A stretch of 37,788 nucleotides of DNA. Source: an uncultured Eubacteriales bacterium (lineage in GTDB: Bacteria; Bacillota_I; Bacilli_A; RF39; UBA660). Below the pieces are notes generated by a model. That model had not been told where the DNA came from. It saw only the letters and a list, made by a program, of their open reading frames with translations, and did not search any database. The stretch is from contig ONQM01000004.1 in the NCBI GenBank assembly GCA_900319955.1, positions 1-37,788 of the forward strand, given 5' to 3'. This document shows, one piece after another, positions 1 through 10,681 of this stretch. The translations under genes and the position numbers were made by a program. Positions within the stretch are counted from its first letter, which is position 1. Each line of letters begins with the position of its first letter.

Positions 1-1707
1 AACGCTTACTTGATTATCCCAATTAGTATTGTCAGTATGAGCTCCAAATCTCTTTCCATTTCCTATATATAATTCAACGTGATTAGATTTTAATAATAAA
101 TCACCAGCTTGTAACTCGCTTTCTTTAATCATTTTTTTATTACTCTTACACCAAGAATACTGAGTTGAAGAAGTTGTAGGAAGTGTTATGTCAAAATGTT
201 TATAAGATCTGTATACTAATGATGAACAATCAACATGATGATCGTCAAATCTTAATGTTTTACTATAACCAAATGAATCAAATGTTTTTACTGCATAATT
301 AGCAACCTTAGCACCTATTCCACTACCAGAAACTGATGTATCACCACTTTCTTCTGATGAACAAACCTCAGGGTCTATTCCAAATACATTTTTACGAAAT
401 CCATTCATTGTTTCCATATTGTAATGAGAAAATGCTGCTTGATCTTCTGCAGTTGTTGCAACCTCAGTTCCTGCATCACATGATGCTTTTGCCCTATTAT
501 AATTAGATTGTGACATATACTTATTTATATATGGAAGATAATAACATCCTCCTTTGCTAGCACTTCCAGGTGAGTACCAGTTACTACCAATATAAGAATA
601 ATGTTTAACGTTAAATACGTCAAAGAGTGATGAAACACCATATCCCCTAAGAATGTTTATATATGCAAGTACACCGTTATCAAATGATGAATAACTTTTA
701 CAAGCTTTATATCCACCAGTATTTGTACAACCAATACCCCAATAGTTATTATTAGAAGCACCTGGTGAATATCCTTCAGCCATAGCACGAACAACAACAA
801 CTTCAGGATTGATACCATTTTTAACAGAAATATCGTAAATATCATCAGCATTATTTGCAAGTGTTTTGAATCCAGATCTTGATGTCTTACTGGAATAATC
901 TTTCATCTTTGATGCAAAATCACTTTTACTAAGTGTTGTTGAAAACATATTGAATTCACCGCACTGTGCATCACCACCGAAACTATATTCAGAACTATCC
1001 ATTTCAATTTGTTCATTAGTCATTACAACAAGAATAATTATAAAAAGAAAAAGTGCAACTACAACACCACCAATTACAAGTGCTAATACTGGATTCTTTA
1101 TAGCAAATGAAACTAACTTAGAAGAACTTTCTAAATTAATATTATTAAGAATATTTAAAGAATTACTGTTTTCATTTTGTTCTTCTTTTTCATTATTTCT
1201 ACTTAAAGAATTTTTCTTCTTTTTATCATCTTTCTTGTTTTTTTCTTTATTCTTACTATCTTTTTTCTTCTTTTCTTCTTCTTTTCTTTTTACTTCCTCT
1301 GCCCCTCCTGCAAGAGCTGCAGCTTTACCACCAGGAGCAAGTGCAGTTGCAGCTTTTCTAACAGCATTTTTCTTTATTTGATCATCTAGTTTTCCATTAT
1401 TTTTTTCTTTTTCTTCATCAAGTTTAGACATTCCAGGCTTTTTAATACTAGTATTATTATTAAGTAAATTCTTACCAGTATTCATATTTTTAGGAGTAAC
1501 TTTTTGCCTTTCACCAAGGTTTGGTAAATGTTTTTTAGGTGAAAGAAATGATTTTGCTCTTGCTTCAACATTAGCTTTTATTCTATCTCTTGTTTCATCA
1601 AGAGCAGAAAAAGAATCAAATGAATCTTTATTTTTTTTATCATCATTTTCTTCTGGCATATTATCTAATTCATCTTGAATTTCATTTTCATCTTTATCAT
1701 CCATCAT
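1..1707 (-). CDS. VirB1-like two-domain cell-wall hydrolase of a type IV secretion system (partial)
   Basis: Read on the minus strand from ATG at 1707; the 3' end lies beyond base 1. Residues 1-200 are a charged cytosolic tail, very rich in Lys/Glu around 130-185. One membrane segment follows at about 202-229. Next comes a lysozyme/glucosaminidase-like domain (about 255-385, with AMAEGYSPG and NNYWGIG), then an NlpC/P60 peptidase domain from about 460, with Cys494 in VDCSSLVY, His543 in SNHVELYIG and a second His near 557. Muramidase plus NlpC/P60 behind one TM is the plan of CwlT/PrgK-type hydrolases that open the wall for Gram-positive conjugation machines. The gene is last in a VirB6-PrgI-VirB4 operon, 42 nt after the ATPase. 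An in-frame ATG at 1713 is an alternative start. Function is inferred from domains and neighbours. Confidence 0.85.
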   Translation of the reverse strand, partial: MMDDKDENEIQDELDNMPEENDDKKNKDSFDSFSALDETRDRIKANVEARAKSFLSPKKHLPNLGERQKVTPKNMNTGKNLLNNNTSIKKPGMSKLDEEKEKNNGKLDDQIKKNAVRKAATALAPGGKAAALAGGAEEVKRKEEEKKKKDSKNKEKNKKDDKKKKNSLSRNNEKEEQNENSNSLNILNNINLESSSKLVSFAIKNPVLALVIGGVVVALFLFIIILVVMTNEQIEMDSSEYSFGGDAQCGEFNMFSTTLSKSDFASKMKDYSSKTSRSGFKTLANNADDIYDISVKNGINPEVVVVRAMAEGYSPGASNNNYWGIGCTNTGGYKACKSYSSFDNGVLAYINILRGYGVSSLFDVFNVKHYSYIGSNWYSPGSASKGGCYYLPYINKYMSQSNYNRAKASCDAGTEVATTAEDQAAFSHYNMETMNGFRKNVFGIDPEVCSSEESGDTSVSGSGIGAKVANYAVKTFDSFGYSKTLRFDDHHVDCSSLVYRSYKHFDITLPTTSSTQYSWCKSNKKMIKESELQAGDLLLKSNHVELYIGNGKRFGAHTDNTNWDNQVSV

Positions 1708-1749
1708 AATCATCTACTTTCTTTATTTATACGCAAGGAAGCGAACTTT

Positions 1750-3540
1750 TTATAGTCCGCCTCCACCACCAAATGAATCTAACTCATCATTTGTAAGTGC
1801 AACATTTATTTGCATTCTTCTATTTCCACATACAAATAGAGCTTCTCCTTGAGAGTACTGTTTAATACCCTCTTTCTCACTATCATTCAAATCTATTAAT
1901 TTTCCTAAATCTTCAACAGCTTGTTTCTTAAGTCCCATTATTAGATAATATGCAGCATTATCAAATATAGCTTTACCTTGTGTTATAACTGCTGGATCAG
2001 AGAAATCTGAAGGCTGCTGAGTAATAATTATTGACCCTGTATTATACTTTCTAGCCCTTCTTTGTATTTGAGCTAAAAAGTCAGCACCAAGTGCATTATT
2101 ATCACCTAGTATTACATGTGCCTCATCTACCATAAGTATTGTGTTAACATCAGGATTAAGACATAAACTCCAAGCATATTTTAATATGTTAAAGAAAAGT
2201 GCATTTCTAACATTACTATCACTATTCATTAACTCTTTAATATTAAATACCATAAAATCACTATGTGCAGTTAAAGTTGTATGACCATCAAAATAGAATT
2301 TTAATTCTTTTACAAGAGGTCTTACTTTTAATTCAAGGCGTTCTAATATATCACGTTCTTGAGTTTTTTCGGTAATAGACATAAGTCTACCTTTTATTGT
2401 TGCATAAACATCAGTAAATGTTGGATAATCATTAGAAGTAAACTTAGAAAAGTCAGTATCAAAATCTATTCCAAATCTTTTATAAGTATCTTGAACAATT
2501 TCACTAAACATCGTTAAACAATCTTCTTCAATTGTTGGATCATAGTATTTCATAAATGCTTTTAAACTTTGTAAAGTTCTTGTTAAAACAGTATAACCAA
2601 GTCCTTGTCTTATTTCATCTTCATCTGCATCTAACACAACTTCAAGTGGATTAATTAAACCAAATCTTCCACCTTTTCCAATATCAATTGTGTCTCCTCC
2701 AAGAGATTTTGTTAAATCTCTTAATTCATCTTCAGGATCTATTGCAACTATTTGACATCCATTTCTAATATGTGTTCTTAAAAGAAGTTTTGCAGCAGTT
2801 GATTTACCAGATCCTGATGTACCAAGAATAATCATATTAGCGTTATTTCTATTAGATTCTTTTCTTATTTGATATAAGAACTGATTAAATAAAACAACTC
2901 CACCTGAGAAGTCAACTCCAAGAAGTGTTGAAAGTCCAGGATCTTTTATACTATCAAATATGAATGGGTACATTGCAGCGATTGTTTGACTTGGAATTGG
3001 TGTTCCAATTCTATCTTCAATATCTTGCTTAGGAAATATTGGAAGAATAGACTTAAGAGCTTTTTCTTGTTCAAATCTTAATGCTATTGCACGAAGCCCC
3101 ATAGCATCCAAATAGTTCCTAACATTAGTTTTCATTATTTCAAGATTTTCTTTTGTATCAGATGTAACCATAATATGCATCTGAAAATCGAATATATGTT
3201 CCTGGTTAGCTGCAAGCATAGATGTAAAATACTGCAGGGACTCTGCATCTTGTCTTAAACGCTCTTTTGCAGTCAAATCTTTTTCTTCTTTATACTTTTC
3301 CTCTAAATCTGCAACTTGTCTATTAAGCATCTTAGACATAGAAGAAAATGGAACTGGAATATGCTTTATAACAATTTTAATACCAGGCATACTAGTTAGT
3401 GTTGATAAATAACCAGGCATTATATATTTGGGATATGATATAACTGTTAGAATTGTTGCATATTTGTCACTTATATAGAAATCGCTTGAATTAAAATTTA
3501 AGCTTTTAGGAGCTAATTCACTTTTAATATTCATACTCAT
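1750..3540 (-). CDS. VirB4-like secretion ATPase, C-terminal motor part
   Basis: 596 residues. Walker A is GTSGSGKST at 240-248, Walker B is TILMVDEAH at 467-475, and a further motif IITQQPSDF lies near 506-514, all typical of VirB4/TraE/PrgJ-type ATPases that power type IV secretion. The region before Walker A (1-230) matches only the second half of the usual VirB4 N-terminal domain. The first half is encoded by the separate gene just upstream (3540-4088), whose stop overlaps this start as TAATG. Together the two give about 778 residues, close to a full-length Gram-positive VirB4. The tail ends in a short glycine run (GGGGGL). A cytosolic, membrane-associated ATPase is expected. Confidence 0.92.
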   Translation of the reverse strand: MSMNIKSELAPKSLNFNSSDFYISDKYATILTVISYPKYIMPGYLSTLTSMPGIKIVIKHIPVPFSSMSKMLNRQVADLEEKYKEEKDLTAKERLRQDAESLQYFTSMLAANQEHIFDFQMHIMVTSDTKENLEIMKTNVRNYLDAMGLRAIALRFEQEKALKSILPIFPKQDIEDRIGTPIPSQTIAAMYPFIFDSIKDPGLSTLLGVDFSGGVVLFNQFLYQIRKESNRNNANMIILGTSGSGKSTAAKLLLRTHIRNGCQIVAIDPEDELRDLTKSLGGDTIDIGKGGRFGLINPLEVVLDADEDEIRQGLGYTVLTRTLQSLKAFMKYYDPTIEEDCLTMFSEIVQDTYKRFGIDFDTDFSKFTSNDYPTFTDVYATIKGRLMSITEKTQERDILERLELKVRPLVKELKFYFDGHTTLTAHSDFMVFNIKELMNSDSNVRNALFFNILKYAWSLCLNPDVNTILMVDEAHVILGDNNALGADFLAQIQRRARKYNTGSIIITQQPSDFSDPAVITQGKAIFDNAAYYLIMGLKKQAVEDLGKLIDLNDSEKEGIKQYSQGEALFVCGNRRMQINVALTNDELDSFGGGGGL

Positions 3541-4088
3541 TATGACATCACCGTCCCAAAACTAGTATCCATTCCCCCATTTAAGAAATTATTTAAAATA
3601 ATTCTTAAATCTTCATTAGATGCTTGCGAAGCATTAAGTCCACAAGATGCAAGACCATTAATTAAAAGTCTTACTTTCTTTTGAACATCTTCATCTTTTC
3701 TATCTTTAAATAAAATATAATATTCAGTATCAACAACGTTATTATTTATAAAGTTGTTAGCTTTATCCAAATCTTGACTAATTAGCTTTCTAATAGCAGG
3801 ACTTGTTGTTTTATTATACTGAAGCTGTAACTGACTCATATAAACAGAAATATCAACAGGACGATCTGCAACAACAAGCCAAAACTCAAAATCAATCATA
3901 TTATAAAAGTTTTTTAAACCAATTAATGTATTATTCTGAGAATCTTGATCAAGAATAAATATATTTTTTGGTGTTATCTTTACACCTGTAACTTTATATC
4001 CATCATCTGTAACAATAGTATTATTTGTTATAGCCTTTACTGGAAGCCAGTTCTCAGTAAAAGGACTTGTACCTTTTTTATTTGCCAT
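3540..4088 (-). CDS. VirB4 N-terminal domain encoded as a separate gene
   Basis: 182 residues starting MANKKGTSPF, no membrane segment. It resembles the N-terminal part of Gram-positive VirB4/TraE proteins (a region containing DDGYKVTGVKI and later WLVVADRPVDI), and its end FLNGG leads naturally into the start of the next gene (SELAPKSLNF...SYP). The start overlaps the PrgI gene by 11 nt (ATGGCAAATAA). The stop overlaps the ATPase start by one base (TAATG), so translation is probably coupled. Either VirB4 is genuinely two subunits here, or a single-base change has split one gene. A separate unrelated subunit is less likely, because the two pieces add up to a normal VirB4 length. Confidence 0.72.
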   Translation of the reverse strand: MANKKGTSPFTENWLPVKAITNNTIVTDDGYKVTGVKITPKNIFILDQDSQNNTLIGLKNFYNMIDFEFWLVVADRPVDISVYMSQLQLQYNKTTSPAIRKLISQDLDKANNFINNNVVDTEYYILFKDRKDEDVQKKVRLLINGLASCGLNASQASNEDLRIILNNFLNGGMDTSFGTVMS

Positions 4089-4386
4089 TTCTTATACACC
4101 AACCTCTCCATATATATTTTTGTCTATGAGTTAAAAATCCAATTGCTTCACTTATTACAACTAACATATTGTGATAATAAGGTATTGGCATATCTAGAAA
4201 TGCACAAATAAGTGCAGGTAGTAGAACTAAAACTACAGTTAAAGTAGATGTTAGTTCTACAAAGAAAAGCATCAAAAGTGTTATACCAATACCAGTTCCA
4301 AGAAGAATTAAATCAAATGGTGTAAAAACACCAAATATTAGTTCTCCATTCTTTGTATTAGCTGGTATCAAATATTGATTATTCAC
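4078..4386 (-). CDS. PrgI family (VirB3-like) inner-membrane protein of conjugation machinery
   Basis: 102 residues beginning at a GTG codon. Two adjacent hydrophobic segments lie at about 26-48 and 50-66, and the C-terminus is FLTHRQKYIWRGWCIRNGK. The YxWRGWC ending is characteristic of the PrgI family, which sits directly before VirB4 in Gram-positive conjugation operons, as it does here. The family is thought to act like VirB3, holding the ATPase to the membrane channel. The gene overlaps the next one by 11 nt. An AAAGGG stretch lies about 12 nt before the GTG, a longer spacing than usual. Confidence 0.85.
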   Translation of the reverse strand: MNNQYLIPANTKNGELIFGVFTPFDLILLGTGIGITLLMLFFVELTSTLTVVLVLLPALICAFLDMPIPYYHNMLVVISEAIGFLTHRQKYIWRGWCIRNGK

Positions 4387-4406
4387 TATATATCACATCC
4401 CTTTTA

Positions 4407-6815
4407 TTAATGACCGCCAGGTCCTCCACCTCTATTATGACTAGTTGCAGCTTCTTGCTCTTGAATTTTTTTCTGAACTGCTTGAATTTGAGGTGTAATG
4501 CTATCAATTGCATCTTGATATGTTTGAAGCTGTACATTGTCTTTTTCAATTTCAGCTTCTCTTCTATGGATTTCAGGATCAGTTGTACTTGTAAAGAAGT
4601 TAGTAATTTTATCTATATCACTACTTAATGTAGAACTGTTAGTAGCAATTGAAGTTACTCCAGCTTCTTGAGTAGCACCTTCATCAATTAACATTTTCGC
4701 ATTACTAAATGGATTCATGAATTCAGCATCTTCTGCAAGTCTCTTACCATTAAATGAATCATTCATATGATCAAAGGCATTATCAGTAGCAGTTTTTTGA
4801 ATTAATCCTAAGTTAGTTCTTATATCGCCAACTTTATACATTGTACCATTAATATCTACTAGTTCATCATCAGTTCTATTTTCAATCTTAGATCTTGCAT
4901 CTCTTTCAGAAATACTAAGGTCTCCAACTCCAGCATTTTCCATAACAGTTTCTTCATGTGAACCAAGTCTTAAGCCATTTTCATCATAATCATCAACAGT
5001 TCTGGTAACTTTTTTATACTGTTGTATATTTTTAAGCATTCCTTCAACACCATATTTATTAGCAAAATTAGAAGCCTCTTTTTTAGCAGCATTAAGTTTT
5101 GATTTAACCTCATTTGCAGGTGTAAAGTGTTGCTGTTTATACTCTTCAAGAGCTTGTTTATGTGGATTAAGAGTTGTACGCTGGAATTCTTGAAGTGCTT
5201 GCTTAGCAGCTTCTTGATCTCTTTGTAATTGTGCTTCTCTTCTTTTACTAAAATTATAAGGCGTATTACCAATAGCACTACCAGCATTGCCTTTAAGTCT
5301 ATCAAGCTCTGAAACACCTTTAGAGCCATCATCCATAAGTTCAGTATTTCTAGCTGTCATTCCATTCCAAGCAGTTCCCCATCTACGATTTTTAGCATGT
5401 CCGTATGCATACATATTACCAAGCAATCCTCTCATTCCTCTATATCCACCTTCAAGTCCTGCTCTTGCACGGCGAAGTCCTTTATTACCCCTTGGATTTT
5501 TAAGTTCAGTTGCATCCATACTAGCTCTATAACCAGCAATTCCACCAGTAATTCCACCAGCAAGTCCAGATCCAAGCATTCCAACTCCTGTAAACATTCT
5601 TCCGACATTTTTGAAGAAATCACCAGTTTTCATACCAATTGATCCTAAAATAAATTCTGGAGCTTGTCTTGCAAAGAAGAATAATCCAAGTAAAATAAAT
5701 AAATAAGAAAATGCACCAACTGCACCAGAGTTTACTACAAATAAATTTCCTTTTGTAAAACTCTTTGGAAGTTCAGCAGCAATTAACATTACAAAATACA
5801 TAACTCCAACTCTTAAGAATATATCTATATAAGTTTTTAAGGTTGTTTCACCCCATGTTTGAAGCATTTTATCACTTTTAGGATCTATGTATGCAATAAT
5901 TGGCACTATTGCGATAATTCTAAGTATTATTAATTTAAATGATCTGATTGCAATATCAATTACAAATCCTAATAACATTATTAAAACAAAAATACCACAA
6001 AGTGATGATAAGAAGATTCTATAATCCCATACAAAATACTTTTTTATGCCTCCATCAGATAAAGATGAAACTTGCTCTAAGGTATATCGAAGTGAGCATC
6101 CAGGATCACCTTCAATATCACCACATGTATCTGCTTCTATATTTTGAACAGTAGTATTATTTCCGCTGTCTCCATCCAATCTATTTGTTTCATCTGCATA
6201 AAATTCAGGTGTTGCAACTCTAGGATCATCTCTAATTTTCTTTTCAGCAGCATCAGTTACATTAACAGTATAAAATGATTTTAATAAGCCTTTTGCCAGG
6301 TTATTACCATCTTCAACATATTCGTTATTAGCTTCACTAGATGTTTGAGAACTTGGAACACTTGGGCCAATAATTATTTTACCTAAAGTATTATTACTAA
6401 AAACTCTATCTTGAATATCATACATAAGTCCGAACATTATACCATTTTTATTTATTCTATCTTGTAAACTGTTTTGTTCAAAATCACCAGACAAATTTAG
6501 AGGAATAATTGTAACAACTAAAACTAGAGAAATAACAACTCTAGTAATTACTTTTCCAAAGCCAGTTTTTTCATTTGAAAATGCATCAGGATTGACTATT
6601 CCACTAATTAAAGAAATAGCAAGTCTAAATAAAATAATAACACCAAAAATAAGTTGAATTCTCGAAAATAAATCAGTTATTAAAGTTGAACTTAAAATAT
6701 TTGCATTAGCAACATTAAAGAAAACTTGATAAGCGCCACTTATTAGTGAATAGATTCCGTTGTCCATTGCAGCACAGACACTTCTAATTGATTCAACTAC
6801 CTTACTATATTTCAT
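4407..6815 (-). CDS. VirB6/TrbL-like polytopic channel protein
   Basis: 802 residues. The N-terminal half is a membrane domain: helices near 50-72 and 90-112, a 150-residue outside loop with cysteines (DTCGDIEGDPGCS), then a cluster of four or five helices between about 268 and 395. The C-terminal half is soluble, starts with a glycine-rich stretch (LGSGLAGGITGGIAG) and is then rich in Gln, Lys and Glu with likely coiled coils, ending GGGPGGH. Membrane domain plus long cytosolic tail, placed directly upstream of PrgI and VirB4, is the arrangement of the Gram-positive VirB6-like proteins PrgH/ConG. GGGTGA lies 5 nt before the ATG. The gap to the preceding gene is only 14 nt, so they share an operon. 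Confidence 0.8.
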   Translation of the reverse strand: MKYSKVVESIRSVCAAMDNGIYSLISGAYQVFFNVANANILSSTLITDLFSRIQLIFGVIILFRLAISLISGIVNPDAFSNEKTGFGKVITRVVISLVLVVTIIPLNLSGDFEQNSLQDRINKNGIMFGLMYDIQDRVFSNNTLGKIIIGPSVPSSQTSSEANNEYVEDGNNLAKGLLKSFYTVNVTDAAEKKIRDDPRVATPEFYADETNRLDGDSGNNTTVQNIEADTCGDIEGDPGCSLRYTLEQVSSLSDGGIKKYFVWDYRIFLSSLCGIFVLIMLLGFVIDIAIRSFKLIILRIIAIVPIIAYIDPKSDKMLQTWGETTLKTYIDIFLRVGVMYFVMLIAAELPKSFTKGNLFVVNSGAVGAFSYLFILLGLFFFARQAPEFILGSIGMKTGDFFKNVGRMFTGVGMLGSGLAGGITGGIAGYRASMDATELKNPRGNKGLRRARAGLEGGYRGMRGLLGNMYAYGHAKNRRWGTAWNGMTARNTELMDDGSKGVSELDRLKGNAGSAIGNTPYNFSKRREAQLQRDQEAAKQALQEFQRTTLNPHKQALEEYKQQHFTPANEVKSKLNAAKKEASNFANKYGVEGMLKNIQQYKKVTRTVDDYDENGLRLGSHEETVMENAGVGDLSISERDARSKIENRTDDELVDINGTMYKVGDIRTNLGLIQKTATDNAFDHMNDSFNGKRLAEDAEFMNPFSNAKMLIDEGATQEAGVTSIATNSSTLSSDIDKITNFFTSTTDPEIHRREAEIEKDNVQLQTYQDAIDSITPQIQAVQKKIQEQEAATSHNRGGGPGGH

Positions 6816-6829
6816 CTATATCACCCACT

Positions 6830-7708
6830 TTAATTTATTCCACAAAGACTTGTAGCATCAAAAGATCCATCAAGTACTATGTTAAATAGAAGTACTATTA
6901 TATTAGGTAAAAAGAACAATAGTGCAGCACAAACAAGTCTAATTCCTAAATTACTTTGTGCTTTTTTCATTGATTTTTCATCACCAGTCATTACAACTTT
7001 TGTGAAATCCATAGAACTTAATATTATAACTAAAAGAGGTCCTAATATTTTTATATAATTAAAAATTTTTTGAAGAATAAATGCTATAGAATTCTCATCA
7101 CTTACACTACCTAGTAAGCTTTCGCAATCTGTAAAATTTTGTTTATTTTTAGTTTCTTCACTTTTTTTGGAGGCACTGCCACATTTTAAACTAGTATCTG
7201 TTCCATCTAAACAAGCAGTATTATTAAGCTCAGTACATGTATTTTTTGTTTTAGTAGGTCCAAAAGAAATAAAACCATCAGATTTTTTTTCAAAAGATTT
7301 GCAAGCTTTTTTCATTGTTTCTTTCTTATAATATCCCCTTATATTGTAAGTTATCTTTTGTTGAGGACCATTATATGAAACCTGATGTTTTCTTATACTC
7401 ACGTATTTTGGGCAAACAGAACTTTGACCCTTGTTTCTTGCAATTTTAGATAAATTATTAGCATTAGTTGTTTCTAGCATGCTATCAGAAACTCCGACGC
7501 CATTATATAACAAAGCTTTTCCAGTCATTGTATAATCTTTATGAACTACAATCTGTGCTTGATAATTCATCTTACCTTTTTTATCATATGAAGTATACTG
7601 ACAATATGCAAGTACATCTGCGGCATAAACTTTTTTAGGAGAGACTATAAAGACACTAAGCAATAACGCAAAGAAAACAAAAAATATATATTTATGTTGC
7701 TTAGTCAT
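6830..7708 (-). CDS. Secreted/membrane VirB2-like protein with cysteine-rich outer domain
   Basis: 292 residues. A signal peptide (YIFFVFFALLLSVFIVSP, probable cut after YAA near 29) is followed by a Cys-containing extracellular domain (about 30-205), then two membrane helices (about 222-243 and 258-280) separated by a charged loop MTGDEKSMKKAQSNLG. The two-helix module closely resembles that of the 117-residue protein at 7807-8160 (SSDDKEIKAATGRLVKRI), so the pair are paralogues in that region. Two hydrophobic helices with a short charged turn is the shape of TrbC/VirB2 pilins. The large outer domain is unusual for a pilin; it might be a minor pilin or a channel component. The gene leads the VirB6-PrgI-VirB4 operon and has its own promoter. 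Confidence 0.6.
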   Translation of the reverse strand: MTKQHKYIFFVFFALLLSVFIVSPKKVYAADVLAYCQYTSYDKKGKMNYQAQIVVHKDYTMTGKALLYNGVGVSDSMLETTNANNLSKIARNKGQSSVCPKYVSIRKHQVSYNGPQQKITYNIRGYYKKETMKKACKSFEKKSDGFISFGPTKTKNTCTELNNTACLDGTDTSLKCGSASKKSEETKNKQNFTDCESLLGSVSDENSIAFILQKIFNYIKILGPLLVIILSSMDFTKVVMTGDEKSMKKAQSNLGIRLVCAALLFFLPNIIVLLFNIVLDGSFDATSLCGIN

Positions 7709-7740
7709 TTTTCACCACTCCAAACATTTTTACATAGTTT

Positions 7741-7769
7741 ATTATATCAGACAAAAAATAAAATAGCAA
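7741..7769 (-). promoter_or_regulatory. Promoter of the VirB6-PrgI-VirB4-VirB1 operon
   Basis: On the minus strand TTGCTA (7764-7769) is followed after 17 nt by a perfect TATAAT (7741-7746). The -35 box lies inside the left arm of the terminator hairpin of the preceding gene, so terminator and promoter share bases. Confidence 0.6.
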
Positions 7770-7788
7770 CGTATATGCTATTTTATTT
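7756..7788 (-). terminator. Terminator after the small VirB2-like gene
   Basis: Perfect 13-bp inverted repeat (AAATAAAATAGCA / TGCTATTTTATTT) with a 7-nt loop. It lies 19 nt after the stop of the 7807-8160 gene and is followed on the minus strand by a T-rich run. Confidence 0.65.
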
Positions 7789-7806
7789 ATGTAAAACTTA
7801 TATAAA

Positions 7807-8160
7807 CTATTTAATTGAACTCCAACATGTTCTCCAGTCACCAGTGTTACTAGTAACATTTGAATCAGAACTTGTTGCAATAATGTTCATAATAAGAGTT
7901 ACAATAGTCGTCATAAAGAATATAACTGCAGCATAAGCAATTCTTTTAACAAGTCTTCCTGTTGCAGCTTTTATTTCCTTATCATCACTAGAAATAACTG
8001 CTTTACCTAAATCAACAGTACCTAATATAATTAAAAGAATTGGAATACCTATTTGTATAATTGGGAAAACTCCTCTTTTAACAACTGTTAAGAATGGTTT
8101 AATACCATTACATGCATCAAAATCTCCCATAGACTCTGCTATTAAAAGTAACTTATTCAT
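7807..8160 (-). CDS. Small two-helix VirB2/TrbC-like pilin candidate
   Basis: 117 residues from ATG 8160, chosen because GAAGGAG lies just upstream; a longer frame to 8214 has no ribosome site and would run into the promoter. After an N-terminal part with one Cys come two hydrophobic segments (about 28-52 and 69-95) joined by a charged turn SSDDKEIKAATGR, then a polar tail ending CWSSIK. Size and topology fit VirB2-like pilins or the small membrane proteins beside VirB6 in Gram-positive conjugation operons. The two-helix core resembles that of the next gene. It has its own strong promoter and terminator, which suggests it is made in greater amount than its neighbours, as a pilus subunit would be. 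That reading is inference. Confidence 0.6.
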   Translation of the reverse strand: MNKLLLIAESMGDFDACNGIKPFLTVVKRGVFPIIQIGIPILLIILGTVDLGKAVISSDDKEIKAATGRLVKRIAYAAVIFFMTTIVTLIMNIIATSSDSNVTSNTGDWRTCWSSIK

Positions 8161-8185
8161 AAAATCTCTCCTTCGTATACTATAA

Positions 8186-8214
8186 ATATTACATAATTTA
8201 TTGCTTTTTGTCAA
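8186..8214 (-). promoter_or_regulatory. Near-consensus promoter for the small VirB2-like gene
   Basis: TTGACA (8209-8214), exactly 17 nt spacer, then TAATAT (8186-8191), with TG just before the -10. Transcription should begin near 8179, about 19 nt before the start codon. This is one of the strongest promoter matches in the window. Confidence 0.75.
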
Positions 8215-8404
8215 TCATATTAACAATTTTTGACAATTATTTTACTAATTTTTTTAAATTTTTATATAATTATTAATACTATTATTTCATCATATGACTT
8301 TCTGCTTTGATGAGAATCAATAATAATCTGTTATTATCAAATCTATATGTCAAAAGCCTATTTAGTGAATACTATATGACTTTTAAACAACTTTTCAATA
8401 ATAA

Positions 8405-8431
8405 AAAGTTAGTAACTAAATTACTAACTTT
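8405..8431 (-). terminator. Terminator of the pilin/TadZ unit
   Basis: Perfect 11-bp inverted repeat AAAGTTAGTAA / TTACTAACTTT with a 5-nt loop. It overlaps the stop codon of the TadZ-like gene and is followed on the minus strand by TTTTTATTATT. It separates the Tad-like unit from the VirB-like units. The 200 nt between this and the next promoter hold no recognisable gene. Confidence 0.75.
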
Positions 8432-9425
8432 AATTCTTAAATATACTAAAGAATCCTCCACTTTTAACCTCAGTACCAAATATACCAAGTTTAGAAAGAA
8501 AATTAATTATTTCATCATTTTTCATTCTATCATTAAGTGGTGGAATATTGTAAAATATATGAGCTTTAGTTTCATATTCAAGTTCTGATACATCTTTACC
8601 ACTTAACATACTTTTATTTAAAACAATTTTTTTACCTTTTAGTTCATCAAATATATCTCTTCTTGTCTTCATAAGTTTATTAAGCATAATACTACTTGGT
8701 TCAATTAAATAAATTACATCATCACAAACAGTATCATCTTCCATATCATTTAAATCGACAAGTATACATGTTGCACCACTTATTTTATTAATAGTACTTA
8801 TAAGGCCTGCTTTATTAGTAGATATTGTATTTCTAACATTAAAATATTCAAAATCATGTCTGCTTACCTCAACTGCATAAATTGTTTCACCATACTGACG
8901 TTCTAGCTCTTTCTTTATCATATAAATAAGTGTAGTTGCTCCAGCATGGTCTGTTACATTTCTAAAACCAATTACTTTACCAGATACTCCTCCTATTTTA
9001 GAACTACCACTTGTACCTTCAGAATCATCTTGTGGAACATCATCTTGCATACTGCTTACATAACTTACATCTTCTAAAGTATTAGTGTGAGTAACTAAAT
9101 ATTTAACACCATTAATATTATTAGTAAAATTATATATACCAATTGCAACTAGTCTTGATAAATAATTCTTGCTAGAGCATTCTGGTCTATCTGGCAAAAG
9201 AAGTATAATTTTATCAGGTTCTATACTCATTGCAAGTCTTTGTAAATTAGAAACATTCATATAATCTTTAATTGCAGTTAAATCAACAATCATCTTGTTA
9301 AAGTAAAAATTTCTAAAAGTATTTATAAGTTCATCAACAGAAAAAACACCATCCATACTTTTAATAATTTCTACATTTAATTTTTCTAATTCTTCTTTTC
9401 TTTCATTTGCTATTATTACATTCAT
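8430..9425 (-). CDS. TadZ/CpaE-like MinD-family protein with degenerate P-loop
   Basis: 331 residues, soluble. Residues 1-115 look like an atypical response-receiver domain (alternating strands and helices, VDLTAI near 48-53 and IILLLPDRPE near 73-82). A Ser/Asp-rich linker follows. Residues 148-310 resemble a MinD/ParA fold: KVIGFRNVTDHAGATTLIY stands where the deviant Walker A (KGGxGKT) should be, but the lysines are missing. A receiver-like domain plus MinD-like ATPase, often with a damaged P-loop, is the plan of TadZ/CpaE, which places Tad pili at the cell pole. The gene follows three pilin-like genes in one unit. AGGTGA precedes the ATG. The family call is by layout, not by alignment. 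Confidence 0.6.
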   Translation of the reverse strand: MNVIIANERKEELEKLNVEIIKSMDGVFSVDELINTFRNFYFNKMIVDLTAIKDYMNVSNLQRLAMSIEPDKIILLLPDRPECSSKNYLSRLVAIGIYNFTNNINGVKYLVTHTNTLEDVSYVSSMQDDVPQDDSEGTSGSSKIGGVSGKVIGFRNVTDHAGATTLIYMIKKELERQYGETIYAVEVSRHDFEYFNVRNTISTNKAGLISTINKISGATCILVDLNDMEDDTVCDDVIYLIEPSSIMLNKLMKTRRDIFDELKGKKIVLNKSMLSGKDVSELEYETKAHIFYNIPPLNDRMKNDEIINFLSKLGIFGTEVKSGGFFSIFKN

Positions 9426-9433
9426 ATAATCAC

Positions 9434-9964
9434 CTAATTATTGTAAATATTTACAGTCTTAGTGGCACCAGTAACCCTAAATAAACTCATATTACTAAAG
9501 AAATAATTAAATATTGGAATATCAATACTTGCAAATGTCATTACATCAACATAAGAACTTGTATATTCAGTAATATCAGTTCGATCTTTAGCTTTATCAG
9601 ATTGTGATCCATAAGTATGTGTACTTGCAGAACTAGATTCTTCATCACTACCATTTCCTACAATCTGTTCAACTTTCCAGCACCAACCAGCATTTTCACA
9701 TTTATAGCCATCATGATCAGCAACAGATGTAAAAGTAATTGATGCTCCATACCCGATAGATTTTGAATATTCTTGAAGTTCTGCTGTTATTTCTTTTTCA
9801 TGTTCTTTAACTTTATTATCATATTTTTCAATTACAGATATCGCCTTATTTTTCATTTGAAAAGCCTTATTGTAACTAATAGAAAATGCCATAAAGCCAC
9901 TAACTACAACGACAAATAAAGCAATAACAATGTATGCCCAATAACCACCTAGTGCTTCACGCAT
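9434..9964 (-). CDS. TadE-like pseudopilin, copy 1
   Basis: 176 residues. Starts MREALGGYWAY, then one hydrophobic helix (about 11-31), a charged helix (KAISVIEKYDNKVKEHEKEI), and an outer domain with a Cys pair (CENAGWCW). The end, DIPIFNYFFSNMSLFRVTG, recalls the amphipathic end of TadE-type proteins. It is a paralogue of the next protein upstream: the same MR(E/D)ALGGY start, the same (V)ISxIEKY helix, the same paired Cys and WCW/WCY motif. AGGAGTGAT precedes the ATG. A minor pilin or a periplasm-facing structural subunit is likely; the exact role is unknown. Confidence 0.55.
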   Translation of the reverse strand: MREALGGYWAYIVIALFVVVVSGFMAFSISYNKAFQMKNKAISVIEKYDNKVKEHEKEITAELQEYSKSIGYGASITFTSVADHDGYKCENAGWCWKVEQIVGNGSDEESSSASTHTYGSQSDKAKDRTDITEYTSSYVDVMTFASIDIPIFNYFFSNMSLFRVTGATKTVNIYNN

Positions 9965-9977
9965 ATTCTATCACTCC

Positions 9978-10439
9978 TTATTTAAAAACTGGTATAGCAG
10001 TTGTTGTACCTTTCATCCATAAAAATTGCTGACTAAAAAGAGTCCATATAAATGGCAAATGTGAATTTATAAATACAGCAACATTATATTGCACATAGCC
10101 TTCCTTAACTTTAGATGAAGAAACTTGCTGATAGCACCATCCTAGTCTTCTACCTTTAAAATCAGGACATGTCCAACCAGCATTTTTAGCAGTTTCTGTA
10201 GCATAATAAATGCCTTGACTTTCACCATTATAACCAAGTGCCATTAAATCATCATAAGTATGAGAAAGCATATCTTCGTTCTCAATATTGCCCTCATATT
10301 TTTCAATATATGATATGACCCTATTTTTAACTCGATATGCTTTTGTAAAGTTAAGTGAAAGTGCAATAAGTGCAGTTACAAGTACAATAAACCCTATAAG
10401 CATTGTTAAATTAAAATAACCACCTAATGCATCTCTCAT
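9978..10439 (-). CDS. TadE-like pseudopilin, copy 2
   Basis: 153 residues. MRDALGGYFNLT is followed by one membrane helix (about 13-31), then RVISYIEKYEGN and an outer domain with Cys residues in WTCPDFKG and WCYQQ, and the C-terminal stretch FINSHLPFIWTLFSQQFLW. It shares start motif, helix and cysteine plan with the gene after it (9434-9964), so the two arose by duplication. It starts 15 nt after the stop of the 54-residue pilin-like gene with AAAGGAA upstream. The single N-terminal helix and short leader resemble type IV/Tad pilins, but no clear peptidase cut site (G followed by a helix with E5) can be fixed. Confidence 0.55.
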   Translation of the reverse strand: MRDALGGYFNLTMLIGFIVLVTALIALSLNFTKAYRVKNRVISYIEKYEGNIENEDMLSHTYDDLMALGYNGESQGIYYATETAKNAGWTCPDFKGRRLGWCYQQVSSSKVKEGYVQYNVAVFINSHLPFIWTLFSQQFLWMKGTTTAIPVFK

Positions 10440-10454
10440 AATTTATTTTTCCTT

Positions 10455-10619
10455 TTAATTTTTTGCGCCAATAGCACTAGTATTGCTTACATTAGCCCAT
10501 TGATCGTTTATACTATGTCTAATATTTGGCCAAATAACTGTAGTAAAGAATGTAGCTATTGCAGCAATTGCAATTATAGTTACAACTGTTAAGTTTAATT
10601 CTCCTGAAGCCTCTTTCAT
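10455..10619 (-). CDS. 54-residue Flp/pilin-like protein
   Basis: Too short for routine ORF calling. It starts MKEASGELNLTVVTIIAIAA, has one hydrophobic helix (about 9-30) and ends with a short polar tail (SAIGAKN). The ribosome site GGAGAAAGGAT lies 5 nt before the ATG. The size and single helix behind a short leader are those of Flp-type major pilins, and the leader MKEASGE(L)NLT parallels MRDALGGYFNLT of the next gene. A G6 followed by Glu suggests prepilin processing, though the usual E5 is not in place. It is first in the pilin-pilin-pilin-TadZ unit, where a major pilin would be expected. Confidence 0.6.
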   Translation of the reverse strand: MKEASGELNLTVVTIIAIAAIATFFTTVIWPNIRHSINDQWANVSNTSAIGAKN

Positions 10620-10651
10620 ATTATCCTTTCTCCTTTCGTATCATCATCTAT

Positions 10652-10681
10652 ATTCTATCATAAAAGCTATAATAAATTCAA
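10652..10681 (-). promoter_or_regulatory. Promoter of the pilin/TadZ unit
   Basis: TTGAAT (10676-10681), 18 nt spacer, TAGAAT (10652-10657) on the minus strand, about 33 nt upstream of the 54-residue gene. Fair match. Confidence 0.5.

Follow-up and report, generated by a model that had tools for sequence, protein, structure and literature searches.

The window analyzed here is the complete 37,788 bp contig C32 (ONQM01000004.1) of G000, the genome of an uncultured bacterium of the order RF39, family UBA660, so that base 1 is an end of the assembly. Next to this end, a run of genes on the minus strand combines components of a Tad-type pilus with those of a type IV secretion system (T4SS). All the genes that the first-pass annotation had named here, encoding pilin-like, TadE-like, TadZ-like and VirB2-, VirB6-, PrgI-, VirB4- and VirB1-like proteins, are present on this one strand at the coordinates given below. 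On balance, the window appears to hold the central portion of a single inherited apparatus that is encoded in the chromosomes of RF39-type gut Bacilli and joins Tad-type components to a monoderm (MPF_FATA-like) T4SS.

In the T4SS part, VirB4 is encoded by two genes, one for a 182 aa TrsD-like N-terminal part (VirB4N; 3540..4088; positions 98-276 of NF045975, E-value 2e-16) and the other for the 596 aa motor domain (VirB4C; 1750..3540; positions 294-891, E-value 1e-104). The latter matches the solved VirB4 structure 4ag5 (PDB) with an E-value of 2e-64 and contains intact Walker A (GTSGSGKS) and Walker B (ILMVDEA) motifs. The two genes overlap by 1 base in the window, and VirB4N is a separate gene in the 78 named loci scored, with overlaps of 1-4 bases; such a split is not new, since pGO1-type systems and Patescibacteria also encode a TrsD-like N-terminal part in a gene of its own (PMC12102498). 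Upstream is a gene for a PrgI/VirB3-like small membrane protein (4078..4386), which shows a weak match to positions 2-95 of the same model (E-value 0.032), so that the PrgI-like, 182 aa and 596 aa open reading frames cover successive stretches of one NCBIfam model, NF045975. The VirB6-like polytopic channel protein with a long tail (4407..6815) matches the conjugal transfer family NF045848 below the cut-off (E-value 4.7e-7); the position of its gene is kept in relatives, as is that of the PrgI-like gene between VirB6 and VirB4N. Two further genes encode members of a VirB2-like family. The product of the 6830..7708 gene consists of a signal peptide, an extra exported domain and a VirB2-like two-helix pilin domain (PF18895, T4SS_pilin, E-value 0.16, below the cut-off); the 120 aa VirB2-like pilin (7807..8169) has no PF18895 match itself and was assigned to the same family using a hidden Markov model. 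Within this family, 13 of the 24 members match PF18895 at the loose threshold of E≤0.1 (best E-value 4.8e-7). At the other end of the run, the contig end cuts the gene for a VirB1-like wall hydrolase (1..1713) in which a long charged N-terminus is followed by one transmembrane helix and an NlpC/P60 domain (PF00877, E-value 1.8e-12); related or SpoIID-type hydrolases, the latter in G013, occupy this slot in relatives. Upstream of the cluster in G013, a VirB2-like T4SS_pilin domain is fused to an NlpC/P60 domain (L197:15396-16265).

The Tad-like genes in the window encode a 54 aa Flp-like major pilin (10455..10619), the single-helix TadE-like pseudopilins 1 (9978..10439) and 2 (9434..9964; assigned from its aligned family), and a TadZ-like protein (8430..9425). 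These family calls had been made from gene layout; TadZ and TadE now gain support from predicted folds, whereas the canonical Flp motif is absent, and that call holds by position (behind TadC in relatives) and shape. The AlphaFold model of the TadZ-like protein (pLDDT, predicted local distance difference test, 83) combines a receiver-like N-terminal domain with a ParA/MinD-type C-terminal domain, and alignment to ParF (4dzz) yields a Z-score of 14.5 over 163 residues at a root-mean-square deviation of 3.3; the Walker A motif is degenerate (HAGATT). Comparison of its profile with six other TadZ proteins gave no match, no entry named TadZ is found among the matches listed for the fold search, and the TadZ and TadC sequences have no matches in the PDB. 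The ParA-type fold with a receiver-like N-terminus fits TadZ, a prediction that leans on fold and position. In the model of TadE1 (pLDDT 90), a single long helix at the N-terminus is combined with a small beta domain; type II secretion system pseudopilins rank first among its fold matches, with a Z-score of 5.4 (VIA re-alignment) that is within the range of common arrangements, and a Foldseek search with TadE returned nothing significant. The predicted fold is at most suggestive of a pseudopilin.

TadE2 has the shared leader M[KR][ED]A.G and lacks G-x4-E, and the leader of the Flp-like protein, MKEASG|ELNLT, lacks E5. A canonical prepilin site, G|xxxxE, is missing from all 83 Flp-like and all 109 TadE-like sequences. 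The motif K.A[TSAVG][GA]E.[NST].T is present in 76 of the 83 Flp-like homologs, and the Flp-like and TadE-like sequences have a short M[KR]xAxG-type leader in common. Given the lack of a canonical prepilin site, the RF39 pilins do not support the label of canonical Tad pilins, and the machine is better described as Tad-like. No dedicated prepilin peptidase (TadV) was seen in the cluster; the only A24 peptidase found in G000 is encoded on contig C19, as part of a type IV pilus-like set that includes a PilB-like ATPase with a long low-complexity tail and pilin-like genes.

The first-pass annotation had seen no TadA, TadB, TadC, VirD4 or relaxase here. Beyond the window, this holds for the relaxase, as searched for with PF03432 and PF02486, but not for the other components, which are encoded on other contigs of G000. 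Contig C37 carries the genes for TadA, TadB, TadC and CpaB together with a sortase-like gene. TadA matches PF00437 (E-value 1e-28) and has an intact Walker A motif; its NCBIfam scores, 117.8 bits for VirB11 and 103.7 bits for the TadA family, are both below the cut-offs, and the call leans on the neighboring CpaB, TadB and TadC. The membrane proteins TadB and TadC (T2SSF) have no Pfam match and were recognized in profile-profile comparisons with annotated TadB and TadC (about 94% probability; E-value of about 1e-7 for one comparison), and CpaB exceeds the cut-off of PF16976 (30.8 vs 28.8 bits), in agreement with the RcpC/CpaB family. VirD4 is encoded at the start of contig C55 (C55:154-2355), scores 314.6 bits with NF045973 (cut-off 250), matches PF02534 (E-value 1e-58) and retains intact ATPase motifs. 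In the congener G203 (L220/L221), the whole cluster is contiguous and co-directional, in the order P583, sortase, BigA, P167, CpaB, TadA, TadB, TadC, Flp, TadE1, TadE2, TadZ, two VirB2-like genes, VirB6, PrgI, VirB4N, VirB4C, hydrolase, P255, VirD4 and P408. The P255 protein, encoded between the hydrolase and VirD4, has no Pfam match and is a candidate VirB8-like NTF2 protein. An ISL3 transposase gene lies directly behind TadC on C37 (L003:6584-7354), where the cluster of G000 splits. In another congener, G079, the break looks like an assembly break because the contigs end just behind TadC and just upstream of Flp; in G000, a rearrangement is more likely because both contigs run on past the junction, although the split might alternatively be a misassembly driven by the insertion sequence. 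Beside the Tad block on C37, one or more giant secreted proteins (L003:3-5573 and L154) contain repeated ALK/LTK glycine-rich and cadherin-like domains and might be adhesins.

The arrangement is widespread among the relatives. VirB4 matches were detected in 84 of the 98 genomes of the family, nearly all of them close orthologs (65-91% identity, about 600 aa), with G083 and G094 having only a distant one and some genomes containing further distant or fragmentary matches; in the order, 221 of 241 genomes have a match, and outside the family the best matches in the class show 32-35% identity. The cluster order is seen again in dozens of genera, and in many of them, the congener included, the cluster is contiguous from Tad to VirD4. 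The consensus is CpaB-TadA-TadB-TadC-Flp-TadE-TadZ-VirB2-VirB6-PrgI-VirB4N-VirB4C-wall hydrolase-(P255)-VirD4, co-directional and chromosomal, and its recurrence is far above chance. In the 80 named loci, which are the closest matches and bias the linkage fractions upward, TadABC and TadZ are encoded upstream of VirB4 in 56 of the 58 loci with at least 9 kb upstream, and VirD4 downstream in all 69 loci with 7 kb downstream. These loci come from metagenome-assembled genomes of uncultured, mostly gut, Bacilli/Tenericutes, including Candidatus Onthousia (Bacilli incertae sedis in the NCBI taxonomy) and Candidatus Faecimonas, which we take to belong to the order RF39, family UBA660, of GTDB. These data support the idea of a chromosomal machine that combines Tad-type with T4SS genes, in an order found repeatedly and without markers of mobile elements; most relatives with the VirB unit also have the pilin genes.

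In a looser sample of the family, the two halves are found at separate loci in G007, G020, G034, G045, G057 and G061. Among 96 family genomes, scored by hand from orthologs, 80 encode both Tad and T4SS, 8 the T4SS only (several of these genomes being fragmented), 2 Tad only and 6 neither (Fisher p 8e-5, with related genomes not independent and no correction for phylogeny). The separated Tad blocks (L168, L188, L190 and L193) still end in TadZ and a VirB2-like gene, and no VirB2-like gene was detected behind TadZ in the Tad-only G083 and G094 (two genomes only). Pairwise identities of VirB4 are correlated with those of TadB (r 0.81 over 62 loci), VirD4 (r 0.89) and the downstream housekeeping gene RmuC (r 0.77 over 36 loci), which is located behind VirD4 in 17 of the 21 loci with enough DNA. 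This single distance pattern is as expected from vertical descent and points to a resident chromosomal locus.

No PF03432 relaxase was found in G000 (other relaxase families were not searched genome-wide), and PF02486 relaxases were found in none of the 11 genomes searched, G000 included. Among the 96 genomes, 14 contain PF03432 above the cut-off, in no case near the cluster where the match was placed, and no integrase was seen beside the cluster. The first-pass annotation had considered that VirD4, a relaxase and an integrase might lie just outside the window; of these, VirD4 is indeed encoded outside the window, but no relaxase and no integrase could be seen alongside. G094 (L054, G094:C1:1000-20999), G003, G025, G052 and G083 also encode a distant T4SS whose VirB4 is undivided (about 790 aa, 33-35% identity); several of these genomes show a sub-cut-off relaxase match, and this second system looks like a separate conjugative element.

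T4SS and Tad genes also form one single-strand run on two plasmids, CP074574.1 (zrk4) of a Mycoplasmatota host from a cold seep and pEYLC1.2 (NZ_CP082335.1) of Exiguobacterium acetylicum. As in RF39, both carry a split VirB4, PrgI, VirB6 and VirD4 along with CpaB, TadZ, TadA, TadB, TadC and pilin-like genes, and the RF39 models recognize CpaB, P167 and TadC on pEYLC1.2 (140.7 bits for CpaB, compared to at most 67.8 for the other loci tested); single-sequence hhalign comparisons with the zrk4 proteins were unsuccessful. Unlike in RF39, the genes are plasmid-borne and accompanied by a relaxase, annotated as MobP3 in pEYLC1.2 and MobP3-like, below the cut-off, in zrk4; furthermore, as judged by eye, the canonical G|xxxxE site is retained in the pilins of zrk4. 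Both plasmids are typed as non-mobilizable in PLSDB. No Tad genes were found near VirB4 in other plasmid T4SSs, those of Halobacillus, Sulfobacillus, Priestia and Peribacillus; hence the association of T4SS with Tad is not general. In Carnobacterium, Spiroplasma and Planococcus, the neighborhood covered was about 2-4 kb on each side.

With VirB4, VirB6 and PrgI, a wall hydrolase and VirD4, the T4SS part has the makeup of a monoderm system. We favor, with moderate confidence, the interpretation that the cluster encodes a domesticated, relaxase-less conjugation apparatus in which the contact would be made by the Tad pilus and protein or DNA would be transported by the T4SS. In such an apparatus, TadA, TadB, TadC and TadZ would drive the extension, and perhaps also the retraction, of a pilus by which a neighboring cell is captured; the wall hydrolase would open the peptidoglycan, VirB6, PrgI and VirB4 would build the channel, the VirB2-like proteins might form a sheath or a short pilus, and VirD4 would feed the substrate. 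Since a relaxase was not detected next to the cluster, the most probable substrate is protein or non-conjugative DNA, not a plasmid. The apparatus probably originated from a domesticated conjugation module of the kind found on pEYLC1.2 and the zrk4 plasmid.

Several observations weigh against this interpretation. Each of the two ATPase sets is complete, so that a single physical machine is not required, and the modules are separable, Tad being encoded without this T4SS in G083 and G094, and the T4SS without TadA in G038. Co-inheritance could reflect linkage only, and no substrate or effector was identified. In the VirB4 tree, RF39 is placed beside T4SSs without Tad detected near VirB4, not with the Tad-bearing plasmids. 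Neither one common origin of the T4SS-Tad association nor its descent from such a plasmid is thereby shown; it may have arisen repeatedly or have been lost, and the TadA tree suffers from long-branch problems. The separate motor sets, the Tad-only and T4SS-only genomes and the halves located at separate loci speak for a rival view in which an adhesive Tad pilus and the T4SS are surface machines that work independently, with a shared cluster and shared inheritance but separate mechanisms. This is a serious, if unlikely, alternative; against it stand the tight co-direction across most genera, the recurrence of single T4SS-Tad operons on plasmids of other families and the placement of a VirB2-like gene behind TadZ.

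If the substrate were chromosomal DNA, exported to or taken up from kin after pairing by the Tad pilus, the system would resemble Ups/Ced or the PAPI-1 pilus. The intact VirD4 and VirB4 are homologous to DNA-transfer ATPases, ComEC is encoded in all 11 genomes searched (on C37 in G000), and RF39 auxotrophy has been reported (PMC6784871); but ComEC is common in bacteria anyway, no DNA-processing genes were recognized in the cluster, and relaxases are absent by PF03432 (G000) and PF02486 (11 genomes), so that we regard DNA exchange as rather improbable. That the locus is a resident integrative and conjugative element or its decaying remnant is highly implausible: the T4SS components are all of the conjugative type and the ISL3 transposase gene adjoins TadC in G000, but close orthologs across genera, distances matching those of the housekeeping neighbor, intact motifs and the lack of a visible relaxase or integrase beside the cluster all count against it. 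Least credible of all is the chimera contemplated in the first-pass annotation, in which VirB4 would be the motor that polymerizes Tad pilins without TadA, TadB and TadC. Only their apparent absence from the window favored it, whereas G000 encodes TadA with an intact Walker A motif, TadB, TadC and VirD4, relatives have these genes within the same cluster, and in G038, which has the T4SS only, Tad pilins are not seen next to it. The chimera is refuted for genomes with TadA, and one lacking TadA, TadB, TadC or VirD4 was rejected, these components being encoded on other contigs of G000.

Among the closest parallels in gene content is the T4SS of Patescibacteria such as Southlakia and Nanosynbacter (PMC12102498, PMC12857230), which is chromosomal and clade-wide in genome-reduced hosts that also have type IV pili, with an MPF_FATA-like VirB4, a separate TrsD-like N-terminal gene, PrgI, VirB6, VirB2-like pilin genes that often form arrays, and mostly no relaxase. 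These bacteria belong to another phylum, their VirD4 gene generally lies away from virB4 and most of them lack VirB1, whereas the RF39 cluster contains VirD4, the hydrolase and Tad; neither paper uses the word Tad. Linear plasmids of Cutibacterium acnes (PMC5696575) carry a tad locus near VirB4-like and TcpC-like conjugation genes, with the pilin detected on the surface, but they are mobile, strain-variable and actinobacterial. The PAPI-1 island and the IncI plasmids R64/TP114 (PMC12857230, PMC9045228) combine a type IV filament with a VirB4/VirD4 system for mating contacts, but these are mobile elements of Gram-negative hosts with a type IV pilus that is not of the Tad type. The Ups pili and Ced DNA import system of Sulfolobales differs in being archaeal. 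To our knowledge, no VirD4-type coupling protein has been described for it. As cited in PMC12102498, this system resembles the RF39 cluster in combining a chromosomal type IV filament with a VirB4-like ATPase for cell-cell exchange.

No mention of Tad or T4SS in RF39 was found in PMC7301438, PMC6784871, PMC13155120 and PMC12306168, bioRxiv and most subscription journals being outside the search, and a clade-wide chromosomal Tad-T4SS cluster without an adjoining relaxase is not described in the searchable papers. Gram-positive T4SSs are known almost only as conjugation machines, and their functions beyond conjugation are a long-standing question (2025 review, PMC12857230). RF39, a lineage of Bacillota widespread in animal and human guts, has a near-universal chromosomal cluster of this kind with no adjoining relaxase, which suggests that these bacteria grip neighboring cells and move something across the contact.

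The RF39/UBA660 bacteria are genome-reduced gut inhabitants (PMC13155120) with small genomes and reported auxotrophy (PMC6784871). In IncI plasmids and PAPI-1, the VirB4/VirD4 system is assisted by, or depends on, a type IV filament, and the epibiotic growth of Southlakia requires both its T4SS and its type IV pili (PMC12857230, PMC12102498). From these parallels and the small auxotrophic genomes, we tentatively suggest, as a possibility only, that RF39, a whole order of abundant gut Bacilli, consists of epibionts or contact-dependent partners that need the chromosomal Tad-T4SS for attaching to other cells and exchanging material with them, which would be a second independent evolution of such a lifestyle after Patescibacteria, with pilins off the canonical processing route. 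UBA660 DNA was reported to be prominent in virus-like-particle fractions of human stool (PMC12946183), which is compatible with very small cells or DNA release, without a demonstrated link to the locus. The cluster offers a testable idea of why the genome-reduced RF39 resist cultivation, and the Exiguobacterium plasmid provides a cultivable relative for testing whether Tad and T4SS work jointly. The relaxase-T4SS-Tad operon of pEYLC1.2 (L211, NZ_CP082335.1 8000-49168), in its cultivable host, also encodes a DUF4320 pseudopilin-like protein and, from a GDTK motif recognized by eye, a prepilin-peptidase-like protein.

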